Part shown: positions 3,818-26,147 of the stretch, one piece after another | Layout: every line of letters starts with the position of its first letter | Position numbering within the stretch: the stretch's first letter is position 1 | Source: Platerodrilus igneus | Taxonomy: Eukaryota > Arthropoda > Insecta > Coleoptera > Lycidae | DNA: 64,000 nt | NCBI GenBank assembly: GCA_036346225.1 | Contig: JARFIW010001365.1 | Span: 554,001 to 618,000, forward strand | Direction: 5' to 3' | The notes under the pieces: generated by a model | The model's database searches: none | The model's input: only the letters and a program-made list of their open reading frames with translations | What the model was told of the DNA's origin: nothing | Translations under genes and position numbers: made by a program

Positions 3818-4117
3818 CCATTTCGAATGGACCTGCACCTTGACGAAGTTCTAAATTACTAGAACAGGTGAAATGGCTTGCGTGTTCTAATGAGCTAAAG
3901 AGCCAAACTACAGGTCCAATCAAAGTAGTAGGGTCGTTAGTGAGGAACCAGACTAAGACAGGTCCCCGAAAGAGGGCAGCGGCTCTTTTGGTACTTAGAT
4001 TGGTAGAGACCATAGGGGTCGGTATGGCAGTCTAAGACACACTACCGCGATGTGGAAGGCAACGGGAAACCACCACATTATCTCTAAAGTACACAGCGTA
4101 CTTAAATTGTACAAAAC

Positions 4118-5005
4118 ATGATGGCATTCTCTGGGGTAAAAAATTCCGGAGTTAAAATAGTCCCCCATTCGGATTTCCGGGAGGGGACTACTTCGGAGGA
4201 TGCGATCGGAAAGAGAGTCGGAAACATTCTGCGAGTCGGAGCGTGGAATGTTAGAAGTATGAAGCAAGAAGGTAAGCTAGAGAACCTAAAAATCGGAATG
4301 AATAGGTTATCACTAGACATAGTAGGAATTAGCGAAGTTCGGTGGCCAGAGGCGGGGGATTTTTGCAGTGGAGACTTCAGGGTAATTTATACAGGAGTAG
4401 AGGAAGGAAATTTGGGTGTGGGGATAGTTATGCGGAAAAAGATAGGATACTGCGTAGAAAATTACTTACAAAAGAACGAAAGAGTACTCATGGTTAGATT
4501 AGAATCTAAACCTGTAAACACAGTAATAATACAAGTATACATGCCCACCTCTAGCTACAGTGATGAAGAGGTAGAAGCCATCTACAAAGGTATTGAAGAC
4601 ATATTAAGATACGTAAAAGGACATGAAAATTTAATAATTACGGGGGATTTTAATGCCGTGGTAGGTGAGGGTAGGGAAGAAGCGGTAGTGGGTTTATTTG
4701 GTTTAGGCACGAGAAACGACAGGGGAAATAGGCTGGTAAAATTTTGTGACAAGAACAATTTAATTATCACAAACACATTATTTCAACATCATGCTAGAAG
4801 ACGATATACGTGGAAGATGCCAGGAGATATAAGAAGATATCAAATAGATTACATTCTTGTTAGACAACGGTTTAGGAACCAAGTAAAAGACTGCAGAAGC
4901 TACCCAGAAGCAGATATAGATACTGACCACAACATCGTAATTATGAAGGCCGCACTTAAATTTAAGAATATGAAAAAAAGAGCGGAAAAGGGCACTTGGA
5001 CTTAA
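4118..5005 (+). pseudogene. RTE endonuclease domain (5' half of the LINE ORF)
   Basis: The frame opens at ATGATG, also present in the copy at about 35570. It contains an AP-endonuclease-like domain: GAWNVRSM near residue 40, ISEVRWPE (catalytic Glu), NTVIIQVYMPTSSY, LIITGDFNAVVG (Asp/Asn pair), RRRYTWKMPG, YQIDYILV and the final DTDHNIV. These are the blocks expected of an EEP-fold LINE endonuclease that nicks target DNA for target-primed reverse transcription. The frame ends at a frameshift around 4990-5000, after which the protein continues in the next frame. The leader 3818-4117 has no other gene. Confidence 0.92.
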
Positions 5006-7082
5006 AGAAACTAAAAGATAAAGACATTTCAGAAAGATTCGAAAAAAAGACAAATGAATTGCTCAAAGATATCGGGAAAATATCTGATACAAAGGAAGTA
5101 GTAATAGAATGGAATAACATTAAATCTAGCCTAGACATGGCAGCCAGAGATATTCTGGGCTATACACAAAAAGAAAATAAGAAACCATGGATAACAAAGG
5201 ATATCCTGAATTTAATAGAAGAAAGACGAAAATACAAAAATAAATCAGACGAAACAGGAAAACAGAGATACAAAGCCATAAAATGGGAAATTATTCGAAA
5301 ATGCAGGAAAGCTAAAGAACAATGGATTGATGAAAAGTGCAAAGAGATACAAACGAAGATGGAAATAGGAAAACAGACGAAACATACAAATTAATTAGAA
5401 TGAATTTTAGGGATATAAAACAGTACAGCAAAAATATAAGGGACGCACAAGGAAACGTCATTATAGAAAACGTAGAGGAAGTGGGTAGATGGCAAGAATA
5501 TATAGGAAATTTATATGCAGGAGAGGAACTAACTACATTAGAACAGGAATCAGACATTGAAAATGAAGACTTGGGATATCCTATACTTAGAGATGAGTTT
5601 GAATTAGCATTAAAGAGTCTGAAAAACAGTAAAGCGCCGGGTACAGATAAGGTACAAGCAGAAACTCTAAAAGCCGCTGAACAAGCAGTAACAGAACGTC
5701 TCTTCCAACTTGTAAGCTATATGTATGAGACAGGCGAGATACCCAAAGATTTCAAACGTAGCATCATAGTAACTATACCAAAAAAGAAAGGCGCAGATAG
5801 ATGTGAAAATTTGCGAACAATAAGTTTGACCGCACACGTGTCAAAAATATTAACTAGAATTGTGCAAAGATGAATGGAAAAACGGGCGGAAAACATACTA
5901 GGAAAAGACCAATTTGGGTTTAGGCGGAACAGGGGAACACGGGAAGCTATTTTAGCTCCGAGAGTGTTAATGGAGAAAACAATAGAAAAAGGGGAAAGCG
6001 TGTATATAGGGTTTGTAGATTTGGAAAAAGCTTTCGACAATGTAAAATGGAAAAAAATGTTTGAAATACTCAAAAAGATTGGAATGAGTTATAGGGATAG
6101 ACGAATAGTACATAGCTTATACAAAGAGCAAACAGCAGTAATAGAATTAGAGCAGGAACGTAGAGAAGTAAACATTAGGAAAGGGGTGAGACAGGGATGT
6201 GCCCTATCCCCATTGATTTTTAACTTGTACCTAGAAGAGGCAATGAATACTGTCAAATGCAGAAAGACATTTGGAATTACTATGCAAGGACAAAAAATTG
6301 ATATGCTTAGATTTGCAGATGATATAGCAGTATTAGCGTCTAGCAAAGAAGAGTTAGAATCTGCTCTTAACGAAATGGAAACGGTTCTAACAAAGAGATA
6401 CGGTATCAAAATTAACAAAACTAAAACTAAAGTTCTAGTATGCAAAGGTGGGGAAAATTAATCAAAAACAAGAATACAAGTATGTAACACGAACTTACAT
6501 GAGGTTAAGGATTTCTGCTACCTAGGAAGCCAAATAAAGCAAGATGGGAAAAGCTCAAAAGTTATAAAACAAAGATTAGCACAAGGTCGTGCTACTTTTA
6601 ACAAGAAAAAGCAACTACTGTGCTCAAAGACCACAAACATAGAAACAAGGAAAAGATTGCTTAAAACATATGTATGGAGCACAGCATTGTACGGATGTGA
6701 AGCCTGGACAGTAGGAGAAGCAGACAAGAAAAAGGTAGAAGCCTTTGAAATGTGGTGCTATAGACGTATGATGAAGATATCATGGACAGTCAAAGTTAAG
6801 AACGAAGAGGTACTAAAAATGGTAGGGGAAGAAAGAAATATGTGGAAAACGGTAAAAAATAGGAGAGATAGGATGATAGGCCACATACTACGGCATGAGA
6901 GAATAGTGCGGAATATATTAGAAGCAGAGATCGGAAAAAAGAGAAGAAGACTCAGACCTAGGTTAGACTACTGCACACAGATAGTAAAAGATGTAGGCTG
7001 TAGGGGTTTCATGGAAATGTGTAGGTTAGCCCAGAATAGAAATCAATGGAGGTTCTCATCCAACCAATCCCAAGATGGATAA
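4996..7082 (+). pseudogene. RTE reverse transcriptase and C-terminal domain
   Basis: It continues the endonuclease frame after a frameshift, with a second frameshift near 5370 where a run GGAAAACAG has one extra base compared with the copy at 36805. From there one frame runs to 7082 with only two stops: TGA at 5871-5873 and TAA at 6459-6461. Motifs in order: KAPGTDKVQAE, IPKDFKRS, DQFGFRRNRGT, YIGFVDLEKAFD (first catalytic Asp), GVRQGCALSP, LRFADDIAVL (catalytic pair), YLGSQI, then the RTE-type tail YVWSTALYGCEAWT and GHILRHE. The second copy has CGA where this copy has TGA at 5871, so that stop is a CpG transition. It is recently dead rather than ancient. Confidence 0.93.
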
Positions 7083-17640: not shown

Positions 17641-17831
17641 TTTTATATTAAACCCAAAATAGAAGGAATATTACAGCATTTTATGTACGCCCAAATTGTG
17701 GGGCTGAAATATCACAGCATTTTATATACGCCCAAATCGTGGGGCTGAAATATCACAGCATTATATATGTACACCCAATCGTGGGGCTAAAAATTAATAT
17801 AATATCAAAGGGGCTAATAGAAATATCACAG

Positions 17832-17872: not shown

Positions 17873-18407
17873 TACGTATGTGTATGTGTACATGTGTATG
17901 TATGTATGAAGGTGATGTGGATGTATGATGTGAAGTATTAATCACTACAATAAATTATTGCATTAGGTACAGGTTAATTCGGAAGACTAAGTAAGTATGT
18001 ATAAATCGAACTTAAACCACCAATATCTGTTTTTTTATTTATACAATTTTTTTTGCGAAACGTATAACCCAACACAAAAGTGACATTAGAATCAAACCAA
18101 ATTCCTGTGCTTTATCAAGTCACTCGCTCAATTTAGATCACAAAATTGATTTCGAACATCCTAAAATTTTAGAACTAGAAAAGATAAAAAGATTATTCCT
18201 TGAAATGTATCATATTTTTCGTAAAAAAATTGTATAAATAAAAAACAGATATTGGTGGTTTAAGTTCGATTTATACATACTTTCTTAGTCTTCAGAAGTA
18301 ACCTGTACCTAATGCAATAATTGATATTGTAGTGATTAATACTTCACATCATACATCCACATCACCTTCATACATACATACACATGTACACATACACATA
18401 CGACTAA
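17869..18407. mobile_element. Foldback element 1, about 190 bp inverted arms
   Basis: The left arm (17869 to about 18060) is repeated in inverted orientation at about 18218-18407. For example ACCACCAATATCTGTTTTTT on the left pairs with AAAAACAGATATTGGTGGT on the right, and GAAGGTGATGTGGATG pairs with CATCCACATCACCTTC. The spacer of about 160 bp has no open frame. The arms end in TTAGTACGTATG and CATACGACTAA. It could be a non-autonomous DNA transposon (MITE); no transposase is present. Confidence 0.85.
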
Positions 18408-18875: not shown

Positions 18876-18919
<44 letters not shown>

Positions 18920-19365
18920 TCTAGGGTATTATGCCGAGCGCCGCCAAGGGACGGTGTGTTATATTTTTGCAAAAATTCTTGCATTTAGCACACCTAACAA
19001 CCCAAAGGTGAAACGTTTTTGTTATGGCCATCTATGAAATATCGATTTAATTTTGATTTTACTTCTGTATTTGACTAGTCTAATACTAGTGGTTACTTAC
19101 CTGATGGCGTTCTTGCTTTACTCTTGCCATCTTATAGAAGTTCTTTCGAAGTTATTTTTGCTTATTGTTTTTGGTTGTTTCATAAGGGTTATAAACCACT
19201 TCATCCTGATGAGATCCAGTGAGATCGAAACTAGTCGATGAATGTTTATTCCCTTTATGAAACAAACAAATTCTTTCATTTATGACTATGCAAATTACTA
19301 GCTTGCTTTGTATAATTAAAAACTTTTTTTCGATTCTTCGTAAAGTTAGTGTTTATTTATACATC
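18876..19365 (+). mobile_element. Hammerhead-A repeat unit between two (TA)n tracts
   Basis: A unit of about 450 bp lies between the (TA)n tract 18876-18914 and the one starting at 19366. It contains a hammerhead ribozyme at 19200-19242 and a downstream tail (TGACTATGCAAATTACTAGC ... ATTTATACATCG) that recurs at 23523-23650 after a second copy of the ribozyme. It has no coding frame of note. Size, lack of coding capacity and the ribozyme resemble animal retrozymes or the terminal repeats of Penelope-like elements. Family assignment is inference. Confidence 0.6.
19200..19242 (+). ncRNA. Hammerhead ribozyme, type A, copy 1
   Basis: All conserved positions are present: helix I 5' strand TTCATC (19200-19205); core CTGATGA (19206-19212); helix II GATC-loop CAGTGA-GATC (19213-19226); core GAA with A15.1 (19227-19230); a two-pair helix III, AC/GT with loop TA (19230-19235); C17 at 19236; helix I 3' strand GATGAA (19237-19242), perfectly complementary to the 5' strand. 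Predicted self-cleavage is after GUC at 19236. Very short helix III is a known feature of type I hammerheads in animal retroelements, which often act as dimers. Confidence 0.9.

Positions 19366-19420
<55 letters not shown>
19366..19420. repeat. (TA)n microsatellite, left edge of the hammerhead-B array
   Basis: A long TA tract directly abutting the inverted hammerhead-B unit. The array's other edge at 21049 is also a (TA)n tract. Confidence 0.95.
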
Positions 19421-19423
<3 letters not shown>

Positions 19424-19845
19424 TTGTAAACAAATATGAAATAAAGCCATTGACAAATACAAATCGGGCTGGTAGTTATATAGCAATTAACAAAACATTA
19501 GCTTTATTAATTCATGGGAGAAACCACTGACCAATGGTTTGTGCTCACAGTGGACTGTTCCCAAGAACTATAAGTAATAGTATTAAGATATATTTCAACA
19601 ATCACTGTACTATGGCAAGTAAATAAAACCGCCATCTGGTGAAAAACACACTACAAAGTTGGAGTAGAATTGAACGAAACTACATAATAAATTTTAAATG
19701 ACTAAAGTAGTTGGGCTTTGAGATTTGCGGAATTTACAGCAAAATTTATTTATAACGTAACAAACCTTCTCGTGGCGACACCGGGTTCATGCCCCATAGG
19801 CAATTCAAATAAACAAAGACAAGTTATTTGCAGTCCGCAATAAGC
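19421..19845 (-). mobile_element. Hammerhead-B unit, inverted (head-to-head) copy
   Basis: On the minus strand this is the same sequence as the plus-strand 495/496 bp units, circularly permuted. It starts at TTATTGCGGACTGCAAATAAC, runs through the GCCATCTGGTG region, and passes a degenerate ribozyme at 19524-19557 where the core CTGATGAGG is changed to CTGTGAGCAC. It stops at the TTGTTTACAATAATTA edge next to the (TA)n tract. Helix I and helix III strands survive, but the core deletion should abolish cleavage. Confidence 0.8.
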
Positions 19846-19847
19846 CT

Positions 19848-20342
19848 CTGATGAGGCTAACAAGCCGAAACCATTGGTCAGTGGACGTTTCCTCCCTATG
19901 AATTAATAAAGCTAATGTTTTGTTAATGGCTATATAACTACCACCCGATTTGTATTTGTCAATGGCTCTTATTATTTCCATAAGAGTTTGTTTACAGATA
20001 CATCTTACTTTATATTCAATTTTCTTATTGCGGACTGCAAATAACTTTCTTTGTTTATTTGAATTGCCTATGGGGCATGAACCCGGGTGTCGCCACGAGA
20101 AGGTTTGTTACGTTAGTAAATAAATTTGCTTAACATTCCGCAAATCTCAAAGGCCCAACGTACTTTATAGTCATTTTAAAATTTATTATGTAGTTTCGGT
20201 TCAATTCTGTACTTCACTTTAGTAGTGTTGGGTTTATCACCAGATGGCGGTTTTATTTACTTTGCCATAGTACAGTGATTGTTTCGAAATATATCATTAT
20301 AATAGCTTCGATTACTTCATGGGTTCTTGGGAACAGTCCACT
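19848..20342 (+). mobile_element. Hammerhead-B repeat unit 1
   Basis: The first plus-strand unit begins at the ribozyme core CTGATGA (19848), with an intact helix II (GGCT-AACA-AGCC), GAAAC, helix III ACC/GGT and C17 at 19879. The helix I 5' strand is missing because the unit joins the inverted copy at AATAAGCCT, so this ribozyme probably cannot fold fully. The body carries ACATGAACCCGG-like GGGGCATGAACCCGGTGTCGCC and ATCACCAGATGGCGG. It ends with GAACAGTCCACT, which supplies helix I to the next unit. Confidence 0.8.
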
Positions 20343-20380
20343 CTGATGAGGCTAACAAGAAGAAACCATTGGTCAGTGGA
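20336..20380 (+). ncRNA. Hammerhead ribozyme, type B, copy 2
   Basis: Helix I GTCCACT (20336-20342) pairs perfectly with AGTGGAC (20375-20381). Core CTGATGA is at 20343-20349, GAAAC follows, helix III is ACC/GGT with loop ATT, and C17 is at 20374. Helix II reads GGCT-AACA-AGAA, so the two core-proximal pairs are replaced by G-A oppositions. Activity may be weak. Predicted cleavage is after 20374. Confidence 0.75.
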
Positions 20381-20838
20381 CGTTTCTATGAATTAATAAA
20401 GCTAATGTTTTGTTAATGGCTATATAACTACCAGCCCGATTTGTATTGTCAATGGCTCATATTTCCATAAGAGTTTGTTTACAGATACACTTACTTATAT
20501 TCAATTTTCTATTGCGGACTGCAAATAACTTGTCTTTGTTTATTTGAATTGCCTATGGGGCATGAACCCGGTGTCGCCACGAGAAGGTTTGTTACGTTAG
20601 TAAATAAATTTTGCTGTAACATTCCGCAAATCTCAAAGGCCCAACGTACTTTTATAGTCATTTTTAAAATTTATTATGTAGTTTCGGTTCAATTCTGTAC
20701 TTCCACACTTTAGTAGTGTTGGTGTTTTATCACCAGATGGCGGTTTTATTTACTTTTGCCATAGTACAGTGATTGTTTCGAAATTATATCATTATAATAG
20801 CTTCGATTACTTCATAGGGTTCTTGGGAACAGTCCACT
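20343..20838 (+). mobile_element. Hammerhead-B repeat unit 2
   Basis: The second tandem unit, 496 bp between cleavage sites (20374 and 20870; the previous interval is 495). It is nearly identical to unit 1 apart from small indels. There is no open frame of significance. If transcribed and cleaved at both ribozymes it would release a monomer RNA of about 496 nt, as described for retrozymes. Confidence 0.8.
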
Positions 20839-20877
20839 CTGATGAGGCTAACAAGAAGAAACCATTGGTCAGTGGAC
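20832..20877 (+). ncRNA. Hammerhead ribozyme, type B, copy 3
   Basis: Helix I GTCCACT (20832-20838) with AGTGGAC (20871-20877); core CTGATGA 20839-20845; GAAAC; helix III ACC/GGT; C17 at 20870. Helix II carries the same AGAA change as copy 2, so the change predates or was spread by the tandem duplication. Confidence 0.75.
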
Positions 20878-21048
20878 GTTTCCTCCCCTATGAATTAATA
20901 AAGCTAATGTTTTGTTAATGGCTATATAACTACCAGCCCGATTTGTATTTGTCAATGGCTCTTATTATTTCCATAAGAGTTTGTTTACAGATACATCTTA
21001 CTTTATATTCAATTTTCTTATTGCGGACTGCAAATAACTTGTCTTTGT
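20839..21048 (+). mobile_element. Hammerhead-B repeat unit 3, truncated
   Basis: The first 210 bp of a third unit, ending at AACTTGTCTTTG where a (TA)n tract begins (21049). The truncation point is close to where the inverted copy begins (ATTGCGGACTGC). Confidence 0.8.
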
Positions 21049-21117
21049 ATATATATATATATACTATATATATATATATATACTATATATATATATACTA
21101 TATATATATATATATAT
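21049..21117. repeat. (TA)n tract, right edge of the hammerhead array
   Basis: TA-rich tract with three ACTA interruptions, immediately followed by TTGCTGTGATAAGGGG. TTGCTGTGATA is the reverse complement of the TATCACAGCAA edge seen at 17822. Confidence 0.95.
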
Positions 21118-22914
21118 TGCTGTGATAAGGGGTTGCTTAAGGGTGCACGTTATAGCAAAGATAGTTCGGGAATGAGTAATTAAGATAGTCAGCAGAAAAC
21201 TACACTTATTTAAAGAGATAATTAAGAAATAGACATAGTTTGTAGATAGTGAGTAGTCAACACCCTGTATATAGAGTAGAGATAATTTTGGGCGACGCAG
21301 GTAAACTTAGGAAGACGCATAGTCGGCGTAGGAATGTGAAATAAATGCATTAAAGTAGATAGTAAATATTAAATACCCTGTAAATAAAGTTTAGTTAATT
21401 TAGGTAAGACAAATGAGGATATTTTTCAGTGGAAGCACGCGTATATTTGATAAAGTGTAATTAGACACGCATTAAGAAGAAGAGTTCCAGACGATTAAAA
21501 TAAATACGGATATAGAAAGAGAGTTTCAGGTAGTTAATATAAATGCGTACAAAGATATAACCATTTTGATAAGAGAAATGATTAAAAATTGCGTGAAACA
21601 TATGTAAACATGGAAATATAAAGTCGGGTTACATCAGTTGTTTATAGAAAAGCAAGTAATCTATCAAAATACAATATGTTGACAATCGAAGACAGCTGCA
21701 GGCAAGTTGTGATTATGGGAAAATGTCGAGCATTGCATCAGAAATGGCTCGTAATAAAATTATTTGATTGGTCCGGGACAACGACAAGTTCTAGATCACA
21801 CCCACGGTTGGAGTAGAATTCGAAATGATATTAGCAAGCTCCGTGATGGGAAGTCAGTTTAAACTCAATCAAGGCCGAAGTGCATTGCCATGAAACAGAG
21901 TAGTACGCGATACGTATAAGAGTGAAAATTAAATAAGTGAAAATATGATTACAATTGCCGTTTAAACGTGAGTATGTTTTTAATGAATTTATTGTAAACT
22001 AAGACATAGAAATAATAGGGCTTCGATTTCTGGTTCTGATTCTGATGTCTGGGGAAAATAAAATACAAATTAGCGGTCTGATGTTAAGAAAAATACAGTA
22101 ATGCAATTTAAATGTCAAGGGAAAAAGAAGAATAATAATGATCTTGAAGTACAGGGGTGAAACGAGCTGCAAGTTTAAGTCTGGGGCAAGAATGATGAAA
22201 GTTTAAGAATTTGAATAAATTGGGGATATAATTTAATGGTGCTGATCAATAGTGTAATAAATTGGAATGGAATCCAGAATTGGGGAAGATCAATTTTAGT
22301 GGGAGCGTCGATGTGAAAAGATAAAACCAGGTCAGAGATTTTTAGTTATAAGATATTTGTTTTTCTATATGGAGTATTATTTTGTTTTATATTTAATTTG
22401 CTAAATTACTATAGGTTTGTGAACAAGTCAACAAGAAAGGTTGCATACTATATGAATGAATAATGAGAAAACAGGTTTGGAATATTCCACGCTTTGTTCC
22501 TAAGGGTAGTAAATGTTCTTTGGTGACTTAGGGGATTTTTGAGTACCAATTAGATAGTTGTTAATAAATCAAATTTATAAGAAAAGTATTACAAATAATT
22601 TCAAAAGCTGTATATAACATATTAGTTTCATTATACAAAATCTAAATTTACTGAATTTTATAATTGCAAATAAATGCTAGCCGAGGTCAAAGATTTAAAT
22701 AGTAGAAAGGCGGAGTCACAAATTGAATAGAGAAGAGATAACGCGCAAGGCGGTAACATATTGAATTTTGTCATTGGTTGTTAAAGAGTTGTTTAAAGAT
22801 AACGTCCAGTTTGATAGTGATATTAAGAAAACAGCTGGAGGAGGAAATAACTACATTTAATAGTGAATGTTAAAATGGTGGTACAATAATTTAATATCAT
22901 AGCAAAAGTAAATA
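21118..22914 (+). repeat. LTR-like 1.8 kb unit, copy 1
   Basis: It starts TGCTGTGATAAGGGGTTGC and runs 1.8 kb to just before a tRNA-Lys primer-site-like module. The last 250 bp carries a promoter-like string: GGCGGAGTCAC, CATTGGTTG (inverted CCAAT), then TTTAAAGATAACGTCCAG. A start in TG, a promoter near the 3' end and an adjacent primer site are what an LTR would show, but there is no second LTR flanking a pol gene. A second copy lies 2623 bp downstream. One 60-76 codon frame (around 21676) is intact only in the second copy and is unrecognised. Confidence 0.5.
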
Positions 22915-23030
22915 TAGCGCCCAAAGTAGGGGCTCGATAAAACGTAAGTATTACAGCAATTAAATATGGTCGCCCAAAGTAGGGGCACGATATTATAGAG
23001 AGTAATACAGCAATATATATACTATATATA
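22915..23030 (+). repeat. Two tandem primer-binding-site-like modules, copy 1
   Basis: TAGCGCCCAAAGTAGGGGCTCGA at 22915 matches TGGCGCCCAACGTGGGGC+TCGA at all but three positions. A second module, TCGCCCAAAGTAGGGGCACGA, follows after about 56 bp, and each is trailed by a TACAGCAA motif. The run ends ACAGCAATATATATAC. Confidence 0.7.
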
Positions 23031-23074
23031 CTACAATTAGTGATTTTATCACATGAAAATTTGGTTGTAAAAAG

Positions 23075-23116
<42 letters not shown>

Positions 23117-23180
23117 TTAATAGGAAGAATAATCACATTTGGAATGCAAATGAATGCTTAATATATATCAATAGTTATTA
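23031..23180. repeat. Linker with (TA)n tract
   Basis: Contains the short palindrome GTGATTTTATCAC at 23040 and a (TA)n tract at 23077-23112. It is repeated at 25665-25813 in the downstream duplication. Confidence 0.7.
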
Positions 23181-23480
23181 AGATGAAATGAAAACCCAAC
23201 TTTGTATTTTAAAGTTGAATTACCATTTCAAATCGAACTAGTAATTGAAAACCACTAAAGAACGCTACAGCAGGTTTGAACCTGCAACCTCTGATTCTCC
23301 GGATCAGTGCTCTAACCAATTCAGTAGCATTAAGTATAACATCATCTAAACAATTAGGCTAGATAGCTCAATTGGTTGAGCACTGATCCGGAGAATCAGA
23401 GGTTGCAGGTTCAAATCCTGCTGTAGCCGTTCTTTTAGTGGTTTTCAATTACTAGTTCGATTTGAAATGGTAATTCAACT
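23181..23480. mobile_element. tRNA-like foldback, copy 1 (truncated right arm)
   Basis: The left arm, from AGATGAAATGAAAACCC, is mirrored on the right up to GGTAATTCAACTT. There the mirror stops and a hammerhead-A unit begins at 23480 with shared bases ACTT. The right arm holds a tRNA-like sequence at 23357-23428; the left arm holds most of the same sequence inverted. The complete version of this palindrome is at 25814-26149. Confidence 0.85.
23357..23428 (+). ncRNA. tRNA-like Pol III unit, copy 1
   Basis: GGCTAGATAGCTCAATTGG includes a consensus A box, and GGTTCAAATCC is a consensus B box. Compared with copy 2 it lacks one D-loop base (GGTTGAGC versus GGTTAGAGC). TTCTTTTAG follows, with four Ts that could terminate Pol III. 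See copy 2 for the fold. Confidence 0.6.
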
Positions 23481-23522
23481 TCATCCTGATGAGATCCAGT
23501 GAGATCGAAACTAGTCGATGAA
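23480..23522 (+). ncRNA. Hammerhead ribozyme, type A, copy 2
   Basis: Identical over the whole ribozyme to the copy at 19200: TTCATC, CTGATGA, GATC-CAGTGA-GATC, GAAAC, TA, GTC, GATGAA. Predicted cleavage is after 23516. It is followed by the same tail as the first copy to about 23650 and then a (TA)n tract. Upstream it is fused to the tRNA-like foldback rather than to the sequence that precedes copy 1. Confidence 0.9.
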
Positions 23523-23651
23523 TGTTTATTCCTTTATGAAACAAACAAATTCTTCATTTATGACTATGCAAATTACTAGCTTGCTTTGTATAATTAAAAC
23601 TTTTTTCGATTCTTCGTAAAGTTAGTGTTTATTTATACATCGTATATACTG

Positions 23652-23653
<2 letters not shown>

Positions 23654-23740
<87 letters not shown>
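23654..23740. repeat. (TA)n microsatellite
   Basis: The longest TA tract of the window, ending in TTGCTGTGATAAGGGG, the start of the second LTR-like unit. Confidence 0.95.
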
Positions 23741-23742
<2 letters not shown>

Positions 23743-25536
23743 CTGTGATAAGGGGTTGCTTAAGGGTGCACGTTATAGCAAAGATAGTTCGGGAATGAGT
23801 AATTAAGATAGTCAGCAGAAAACTACACTTATTTAAAGAGATAATTAAGAAATAGACATAGTTTGTAGATAGTGAGTAGTCAACACCCTGTATATAGAGT
23901 AGAGATAATTTTGGGCGACGCAGGTAAACTTAGGAAGACGCATAGTCGGCGTAGGAATGTGAAATAAATGCATTAAAGTAGATAGTAAATATTAAATACC
24001 CTGTAAATAAAGTTTAGTTAATTTAGGTAAGACAAATGAGGATATTTTTCAGTGGAAGCACGCGTATATTTGATAAAGTGTAATTAGACACGCATTAAGA
24101 AGAAGAGTTCCAGACGATTAAAATAAATACGGATATAGAAAGAGAGTTTCAGGTAGTTAATATAAATGCGTACAAAGATCTAACCATTTTGATAAGAGAA
24201 ATGATTAAAAATTGCGTGAAACATATGTAAACATGGAAATATAAAGTCGGGTTACATCAGTTGTTTATAGAAAAGCAAGTAATCTATCAAAATACAATAT
24301 GTTGACAATCGAAGACAGCTGCAGGCAAGTTGTGATTATGGGAAAATGTCGAGCATTGCATCAGAAATGGCTCGTAATAAAATTATTTGATTGGTCCGGG
24401 ACAACGACAAGTTCTAGATCACACCCACGGTTGGAGTGGGAATTCGAAATGATATTAGCAAGCTCCGTGATGGGGAAGTCAGTTTTAAACTCAATCAAGG
24501 CCGAAGTGCATTGCCATGAAACAGAGTAGTACGCGATACGTATAAGAGTGAAAATTAAATAAGTGAAAATATGATTACAATTGCCGTTTAAACGTGAGTA
24601 TGTTTTTAATGAATTTATTGTAAACTAAGACATAGAAATAATAGGGCTTCGATTTCTGGTTCTGATTCTGATGTCTGGGGAAAATAAAATACAAATTAGC
24701 GGTCTGATGTTAAGAAAAATACAGTAATGCAATTTAAATGTCAAGGGAAAAAGAAGAATAATAATGATCTTGAAGTACAGGGTGAAACGAGCTGCAAGTT
24801 TAAGTCTGGGGCAAGAATGATGAAAGTTTAAGAATTTGAATAAATTGGGATATAATTTAATGGTGCTGATCAATAGTGTAATAAATTGGAATGGAATCCA
24901 GAATTGGGGAAGATCAATTTTAGTGGGAGCGTCGATGTGAAAAGATAAAACCAGGTCAGAGATTTTTAGTTATAAGATATTTGTTTTTCTATATGGAGTA
25001 TTATTTTGTTTTTAATTTAATTTGCTAAATTACTATAGGTTTGTGAACAAGTCAACAAGAAAGGTTGCATACTATATGAATGAATAATGAGAAAACAGGT
25101 TTGGAATATTCCACGCTTTGTTCCTAAGGGTAGTAAATGTTCTTTGGTGACTTAGGGATTTTTGAGTACCAATTAGATAGTTGTTAATAAATCAAATTTA
25201 TAAGAAAAGTATTACAAATAATTTCAAAAGCTGTATATAACATATTAGTTTCATTATACAAAATCTAAATTTACTGAATTTTATAATTGCAAATAAATGC
25301 TAGCCGAGGTCAAAGATTTAAATAGTAGAAAGGCGGAGTCACAAATTGAATAGAGAAGAGATAACGCGCAAGGCGGTAACATATTGAATTTTGTCATTGG
25401 TTGTTAAAGAGTTGTTTAAAGATAACGTCCAGTTTGATAGTGATATTAAGAAAACAGCTGGAGGAGGAAATAACTACATTTAATAGTGAATGTTAAAATG
25501 GTGGTACAATAATTTAATATCATAGCAAAGTAAATA
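23741..25536 (+). repeat. LTR-like 1.8 kb unit, copy 2
   Basis: Nearly identical to 21118-22914 (differences are single bases and short indels, such as ATAT to GATC near 24178). Such high similarity implies a recent duplication. It contains the longer version of an unrecognised 76-codon frame at 24299-24529. Confidence 0.75.
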
Positions 25537-25650
25537 TAGCGCCCAAAGTAGGGGCTCGATAAAACGTAAGTATTACAGCAATTAAATATGGTCGCCCAAA
25601 GTAGGGGCACGATATTATAGAGAGTAATACAGCAATATATATACTATATA
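25537..25650 (+). repeat. Two tandem primer-binding-site-like modules, copy 2
   Basis: TAGCGCCCAAAGTAGGGGCTCGA at 25537 and TCGCCCAAAGTAGGGGCACGA at about 25592, each followed by TACAGCAA. This is the same arrangement as at 22915. Confidence 0.7.
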
Positions 25651-25698
25651 TACTACAATTAGTGATTTTATCACATGAAAATTTGGTTGTAAAAAAAG

Positions 25699-25748
<50 letters not shown>

Positions 25749-25813
25749 TTAATAGGAAGAATAATCCACATTTGGAATGCAAATGAATGCTTAATATATA
25801 TCAATAGTTATTA

Positions 25814-26147
25814 AGATGAAATGAAAACCCAACTTTGTAATTTTAAAGTTGAATTACCATTTCAAATCGAACTAGTAATTGAAAACCACTAAAAGAACGG
25901 CTACAGCAGGATTTGAACCTGCAACCTCTGATTCTCCGGATCAGTGCTCTAACCAATTCAGTAGCATTAAGTATAACATCATCTAAACAATTAGGCTAGA
26001 TAGCTCAATTGGTTAGAGCACTGATCCGGAGAATCAGAGGTTGCAGGTTCAAATCCTGCTGTAGCCGTTCTTTAGTGGTTTTCAATTACTAGTTCGATTT
26101 GAAATGGTAATTCAACTTTAAAATACAAAGTTGGGTTTTCATTTCAT

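Follow-up and report, generated by a model that had tools for sequence, protein, structure and literature searches.

A head-to-head array of hammerhead repeats in the beetle Platerodrilus igneus: probable insertion of a non-autonomous, retrozyme-like family mobilised in trans

Introduction

What kind of element gives rise to a short array of hammerhead-bearing tandem repeats that includes one inverted copy, encodes no recognisable enzyme and lies between TA tracts? This question is raised by positions 19421–21048 of a 64,000-nucleotide stretch of the genome of Platerodrilus igneus (Coleoptera; Lycidae; assembly GCA_036346225.1, contig JARFIW010001365.1, positions 554,001 to 618,000 of the forward strand); this whole stretch is referred to below as the window, and its numbering is used throughout. 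The mobilisation of animal retrozymes by Penelope-like elements (PLEs) has been proposed, not shown (PMC7229834; PMC7761336). In this study, the array was compared with its relatives across the genome, with the PLEs of the same genome and, on the basis of excerpts of the cited papers, with previously described hammerhead repeats.

Layout of the array and state of its hammerheads

The insertion as a whole (19421..21048, plus strand) is a head-to-head array of a unit that carries the class-2 hammerhead. Its inverted arm (19421..19842, minus strand) comprises approximately one permuted unit with deletions, the outer (left) end of which is a 3' end whose position is approximate at the base level. 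The direct arm (19846..21048, plus strand) comprises 2.4 units, and its outer (right) end is likewise a 3' end, located at BLAST unit position +183 and thus including the optional tail, i.e. the stretch of approximately 40 nt that separates the family's two 3' end zones, which is placed approximately at 21009..21048 (plus strand). The inversion junction (19843..19861) holds a 6-bp palindrome, AGCCTCTGATGAGGCT (read by eye), and the insertion is flanked by a (TA)n tract on the left (19367..19419) and a (TA)n-rich tract on the right (21048..21117). A sequence-only reading of this DNA had placed cleavage sites at 19879, 20374 and 20870, spaced by 495 and 496 bp, within a tandem array bearing an inverted, circularly permuted unit at its left; the three positions (H17) were found again, the 495-bp tandem was detected, and the inverted unit corresponds to 19421–19842.

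The tandem consensus of the window has a G+C content of 35% and its longest stop-to-stop frames encode 70 and 77 aa, while its circular fold is more stable than those of 60 shuffled sequences (z = -3.3, a weak signal) and two further stem-loops occur near the end zones. The two complete direct units of the array differ by 0 mismatches and 20 gap openings under gap-friendly scoring, and by 11 mismatches and 16 gap openings when aligned by MAFFT. Unit divergence was rejected as a means of dating the array, because indels make up most of the differences and the number of mismatches changes with the alignment used (0 versus 11).

The sequence-only reading had assigned a hammerhead to each repeat, and this did not hold, as none of the three class-2 hammerheads of the array is complete in all three helices. 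The copy at 19848..19879 (plus strand) possesses stem II (4 bp), while its stem I is only 2 bp, the 5' strand having been replaced by the inversion junction. The copies at 20343..20374 and 20839..20870 (both plus strand) have a stem I of 7 bp and a stem II of 0 bp, the latter being broken by AAGAAG in place of AAGCCG, and the inverted arm retains a remnant (19529..19560, minus strand) from which most of the core is gone. A full type I motif test across the whole window was passed only by two class-1 copies, one at 19206..19236 (plus strand), which has all three helices (6, 4 and 2 bp), and one at 23486..23516 (plus strand), which lies inside a tandem duplicate. The hammerhead motifs of the window are beyond chance, as 60 simulated 64-kb sequences (first-order Markov) produced means of 0.0, 0.0 and 0.08 hits over three search settings. 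No hammerhead in the window reached the Rfam gathering score of 52, the best sub-threshold value of the array being 20 bits (E = 2.5) and those of the two class-1 motifs 25.5 and 26.5 bits. Helix III of class 1, with its 2-nt loop, is not scorable as a monomer, so that a dimer would be needed; self-complementary stretches are ACUAGU and, at 8 of 9 positions, ACCAUUGGU. Minimum-energy folds, in which no class-2 copy of the window preferred the hammerhead fold, were not counted as support. The class-2 hammerhead additionally contains an ATG (within CUGAUGA) that is followed only by a short frame. The incomplete hammerhead copies of the array locus are probably unable to cleave or circularise.

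A sister family and a tandem duplication beside the array

Immediately to the left of the array, a class-1 element (18915..19366, plus strand) represents a single permuted unit of a sister family, lying between TA tracts and ending near the first end zone. Its full-length alignment with the class-2 unit is identical in 312 of 483 columns and scores 230 (maximum of 500 shuffles, 103), and even a part of the class-1 element alone scores 55 (maximum of 1,000 shuffles, 37). Elsewhere in the genome, where 93 exact class-1 hammerheads occur, this family forms tandem copies approximately 517–519 bp apart as well as head-to-head pairs (40 of 1,482 candidates scored). One long class-1 array (G000:C149:3406467-3418282) was observed, with 21 exact hammerheads in approximately 12 kb.

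A tandem duplication spans 19198–26118; the copy that holds the array comes first and measures approximately 4.3 kb, and the second measures approximately 2.6 kb. Segments 19198–19419 and 23478–23699 align with 0 mismatches and 5 gap openings, and segments 21048–23481 and 23674–26118 with 4 mismatches and 19 gap openings over 2,453 columns. The (TA)n tract of the duplicate (23654..23740) therefore represents the same site with the array absent. Insertion of the array after the duplication is the simpler reading, while alternatively the array may have been lost from the duplicate by recombination between TA tracts. Other features of this neighbourhood include tRNA-like sequences in inverted pairs (23266–23429 and 25906–26067), with two good tRNA matches on the plus strand and weaker ones on the minus strand; an element-like stretch between TA tracts at 21118–23016, with short inverted ends TTGCTGT / ACAGCAA (read by eye); and a 41-bp tandem repeat and similar CGCCCAAA...GGGGC repeats near TA tracts (17667–17792 and 22900–23010).

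The class-2 family across the genome

The intact class-2 core is present in 1,324 exact copies in the 2.71-Gb assembly, the reversed-pattern control giving 0, while the stem-II-broken core occurs only twice genome-wide, both times in the array at 19421–21048. The array locus is thus a member of the family that has either decayed or been assembled poorly. Of 49 intact-core units in the fetched loci, 36 measure 510 or 511 nt, a count in which loci overlap and some units enter more than once; the spacing of 495/496 is accordingly a value of the array locus, and the family unit is approximately 511 nt. The suggestion of a 495-nt circle is thereby not supported for this locus, on account of both its incomplete ribozymes and the length of the family unit. 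Twenty loci were sampled for closer study, chosen for an intact core and taken as the first 20 distinct ones in genome order; among their 41 sites with an exact helix III anchor, 33 are complete hammerheads, four lack a stem and four have an altered core. At one of the fetched loci (L042:2502-8186), a class-2 array of approximately 11 units without an ORF has a 5' edge that runs into a TG repeat. The exact patterns of the family were absent from the prokaryote genome contigs and viral contigs scanned.

Insertion shape and ends

Among the 21 insertions of the 20 sampled loci, 13 are head-to-head and the remaining eight are not. Their outer 3' edges are strongly confined: 30 of 33 fall at BLAST unit positions 138–151 or 174–185, together 26 of 511 positions, with 143 (n = 13) and 183 (n = 8) being the commonest and the three edges outside these zones located at +123, +437 and +511. 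Furthermore, 28 of the 33 lie next to (TA)n, compared to 87 of 6,000 random positions of the same loci. The two 3' end zones are approximately 40 nt apart, and the first genome search gave matching end points (query 1588 and 1626–1628). Because the unit itself reads UAUAUA at 134–139 and is flanked by TA, the final base that truly belongs to the unit can, for the first zone, be no later than +139. Genome-wide, exact junctions between a zone and (TA)n number 692 for the first zone and 233 for the second, with 0 for the reversed controls. Another UAUAUA of the unit (approximately +53 to +58) followed by (TA)n was found once genome-wide, showing that TA likeness alone does not set the ends.

The distribution of the zones over the arms is also regular, with one edge per zone (143 and 176–183) in 10 of the 13 head-to-head insertions (the exceptions being L045, L050 and L053), in keeping with an optional short tail at the 3' end of one arm. 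Only three of nine outer 5' edges abut (TA)n, and a single 5' end of 35 (L043, at +3; counted by hand) falls within 5 nt of the cleavage site, so that the usual template does not appear to be a cut linear monomer. In five of the 13 head-to-head insertions (L045, L049, L053, L054 and L058), the unit positions at which the two arms meet are no more than 13 nt apart. Target-site duplications are not discernible within (TA)n.

Penelope-like elements in the window and the genome

No GIY-YIG or PLE reverse transcriptase (RT) domain was found in the 115 of 160 window frames that were scanned. The earlier statement that no reverse transcriptase is encoded here stands for the array and its immediate surroundings, with the qualification that 18049..18219 (plus strand) holds what is left of a PLE endonuclease region, with 33 of 56 residues identical to the ORF of L059. 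This remnant sits in a palindromic stretch, inside inverted repeats at 17875–18052 and 18223–18402, and the corresponding region 18016–18234 was not recognised by Pfam. The window also holds endonuclease-reverse-transcriptase and other RT fragments (4106–7079 and 113–1954), and named protein relatives are mostly arthropod, with Pantoea dispersa and Apostichopus japonicus also among them.

In the genome as a whole, at least 149 GIY-YIG matches were obtained (150 of 6,529 candidates scored). Two PLE loci were read in detail. In the PLE at L060, a single open frame of 482 aa combines RT with GIY-YIG and follows a separate frame of 337 aa that has no match in Pfam, and L059 represents a second ORF with RT and GIY-YIG. 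L060 has direct pseudo-LTRs (pLTRs) that are 98.5% alike, with an inverted copy in addition, and each pLTR contains a hammerhead-like core. Its 3' end enters (TA)n 111–124 nt past its own cleavage position (read by eye), and this junction recurs in 63 exact copies genome-wide (control, 0). No detectable sequence match exists between the class-2 unit and the pLTR of L060, the sole PLE pLTR compared, so that L060 is a candidate helper only. PLE pieces occur beside the unit at L002, L005, L043 and L050 and in the window, and weakly in the overlapping loci L034, L035 and L055.

Discussion

The array at 19421–21048 is probably an insertion of a non-autonomous, ORF-less, retrozyme-like hammerhead family with a unit of approximately 511 nt, moved in trans by a PLE. 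This reading starts from a family with two end zones, a (TA)n target and a head-to-head shape, in a genome that also holds a PLE with a like end; transcription, cleavage, circle formation and the identity of the PLE protein as the mobilising enzyme are what we infer from it. The likeness to PLE pLTRs and retrozymes, together with mobilisation in trans, had been proposed by the sequence-only reading, and both are supported in structure, by the 3' zones at (TA)n, the mostly head-to-head insertions and the PLE with a like end. The sequence part of the proposal fared less well, as a PLE carrying the same ribozyme in its terminal repeats was not found, the comparison comprising the unmatched pLTR of L060.

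Could the units instead be solo or tandem pseudo-LTRs of a single autonomous PLE family, with ORF-bearing copies elsewhere and no independent retrozyme-like element? PLEs are frequent in this genome, the inverted arm, tail and hammerhead match traits of PLE pLTRs as described in PMC3846280, and the ATG of the hammerhead lies in CUGAUGA as in the anole PLE (PMC11167929). Conversely, no ORF lies between units at the 20 loci, where tblastn with the L059 and L060 proteins placed PLE pieces only beside arrays (L043, L050 and, weakly, L055), the frames of the tandem consensus are too short to encode more than the 70 and 77 aa given above, and ORF-less arrays extend to approximately 11 units (L042). 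We therefore regard this explanation as rather unlikely, and favour a separate, non-autonomous family.

A second alternative concerns the origin of the head-to-head shape, which might result from self-priming (snap-back) of one cDNA instead of priming by both DNA strands. Self-priming is the view taken in the available text of PMC3846280, and it would fit the five insertions in which the arms meet close to the same unit position, as well as the 6-bp palindrome at the junction in the window. Against this, the arms meet at differing unit positions in eight of the 13 head-to-head insertions, the presence of one outer edge per start zone in 10 of 13 is directly explained by two separate primings, and in vitro work on the anole PLE showed its protein cutting and extending both strands (PMC11167929). 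Snap-back thus appears a doubtful account of the shape, and priming by both strands is preferred.

The contrary outcome named by the sequence-only reading, an inert satellite, here taken as one that recombination has spread and that is unconnected with retrotransposons, is very improbable. It would be in keeping with the tandem arrays, the long class-1 array and the classification as satellite DNA of pDo500 of cave crickets (463–505 bp, one hammerhead per unit; PMC2837043), while a satellite would not be expected to show short dispersed insertions, head-to-head arms or two narrow 3' zones at (TA)n, and the genome-wide counts make an artefact of locus choice unlikely. Hardly more credible is that the array and its oddities are an artefact of assembly, for although its direct units differ almost solely by indels and its stem-II change is private, a like architecture recurs at other loci, several with units that are 97–99% identical; the private indels and the stem-II change are the only parts that may be artefactual.

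Among known systems, the animal non-LTR retrozymes (Cervera and de la Pena 2020, PMC7229834) are alike in their short non-coding tandem units, type I hammerhead and many dispersed copies, and the G+C content of 35% would fit their low G+C, with the array locus differing in that its own hammerheads are incomplete. The unit of approximately 511 nt lies outside the range of approximately 150–450 bp given for such elements, animal retrozymes measuring approximately 170–400 nt; since the same source gives circles of 150 to over 1000 nt in general, unit size was taken as typical and not as defining. The portion of PMC7229834 consulted describes, for retrozymes, no head-to-head arms, (TA)n targets or pair of narrow 3' zones such as are present here, and our survey of open-licence literature found no paper on head-to-head retrozyme insertions with fixed ends.

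PLEs share with the family a head-to-head inverted copy, an optional tail, a hammerhead upstream of the 3' end and an AT-rich target (PMC3846280; PMC11167929). Reported pLTR traits include an inverted pLTR, an optional 31-bp tail, compared to approximately 40 nt in the class-2 family, and palindromic junctions (PMC3846280), while in the anole PLE two start sites bound the tail of an element that targets AT-rich DNA and has both strands cut and extended (PMC11167929). The 3' end zones lie near +139 and +180 past the cleavage site here, in contrast to approximately +85 to +92 in the anole PLE (obtained by subtraction from PMC11167929), and the start site and the cut DNA, which are not homologous in the latter, may be so here. 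As the class-2 unit encodes neither RT nor endonuclease, and hence lacks an ORF with RT and GIY-YIG, the element was not classed as a PLE. Minimal PLE hammerheads and dimers have been reported (PMC7761336; PMC6155905). Two further systems were compared by description: pDo500 of Dolichopoda cave crickets is alike in its tandem unit of approximately 500 bp, insect hammerhead and proposed dimeric action, and is described as a satellite that makes up approximately 5% of one genome, with no fixed ends or inverted arms in the text available (PMC2837043), and the Schistosoma W-elements / SM-alpha are alike in type I hammerhead repeats and putative mobility (PMC8490949; PMC6155905).

Mobilisation of the class-2 family by a PLE could proceed as follows. 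Arrays would be transcribed, and intact copies would cleave, perhaps as dimers given that helix III is nearly self-complementary, after which a host ligase may close an RNA circle. A PLE RT/GIY-YIG protein would open a (TA)n site, and reverse transcription would begin downstream of the cleavage site, near the observed end positions of +139 or +180. Both DNA strands would prime cDNA, usually one per zone, and 5'-to-5' joining would yield the head-to-head insert; the end pattern on which this step is based is observed, and the order of events is our reconstruction. The template would cross the hammerhead site, and the scattered 5' ends suggest a circle or an uncut concatemer and not a cut linear monomer. 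Identity of the units was not accepted as establishing a circular template, since a concatemer built of identical units would show it equally.

It is tentatively proposed, as a possibility that we hold somewhat short of even odds, that the family parasitises the PLE reverse transcriptase through a ribozyme-made RNA circle, which would present, downstream of the hammerhead, a start region with a PLE-like UAUAUA, with both opened (TA)n strands priming from two fixed start zones and successive laps generating the tandem units. Two observations from the anole PLE count against the mobilisation by a PLE outlined above: its hammerhead mutants insert normally in vitro, so that the ribozyme may not matter for movement, and its protein depends on a specific segment of its own RNA (both PMC11167929), while the class-2 unit and the pLTR of L060 show no sequence match. 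The eight insertions that are not head-to-head, the three 3' edges outside the zones and the scarcity of (TA)n at outer 5' edges likewise tell against it, and the 20 loci had been chosen for an intact core. In the class-2 family, too, ribozyme and integration appear separable, as the cleavage site is not where insertions have their 5' ends.

A PLE-like signature is thus seen at hundreds of ends left by insertions of this hammerhead repeat, in a genome that contains autonomous PLEs with a like end and target. The proposal of a partnership between retrozymes and PLEs thereby becomes directly testable with one PLE protein, one unit RNA and one (TA)n DNA, and if the family does exploit a circular template in this manner, the partnership proposed for animal retrozymes would gain a defined mechanism.
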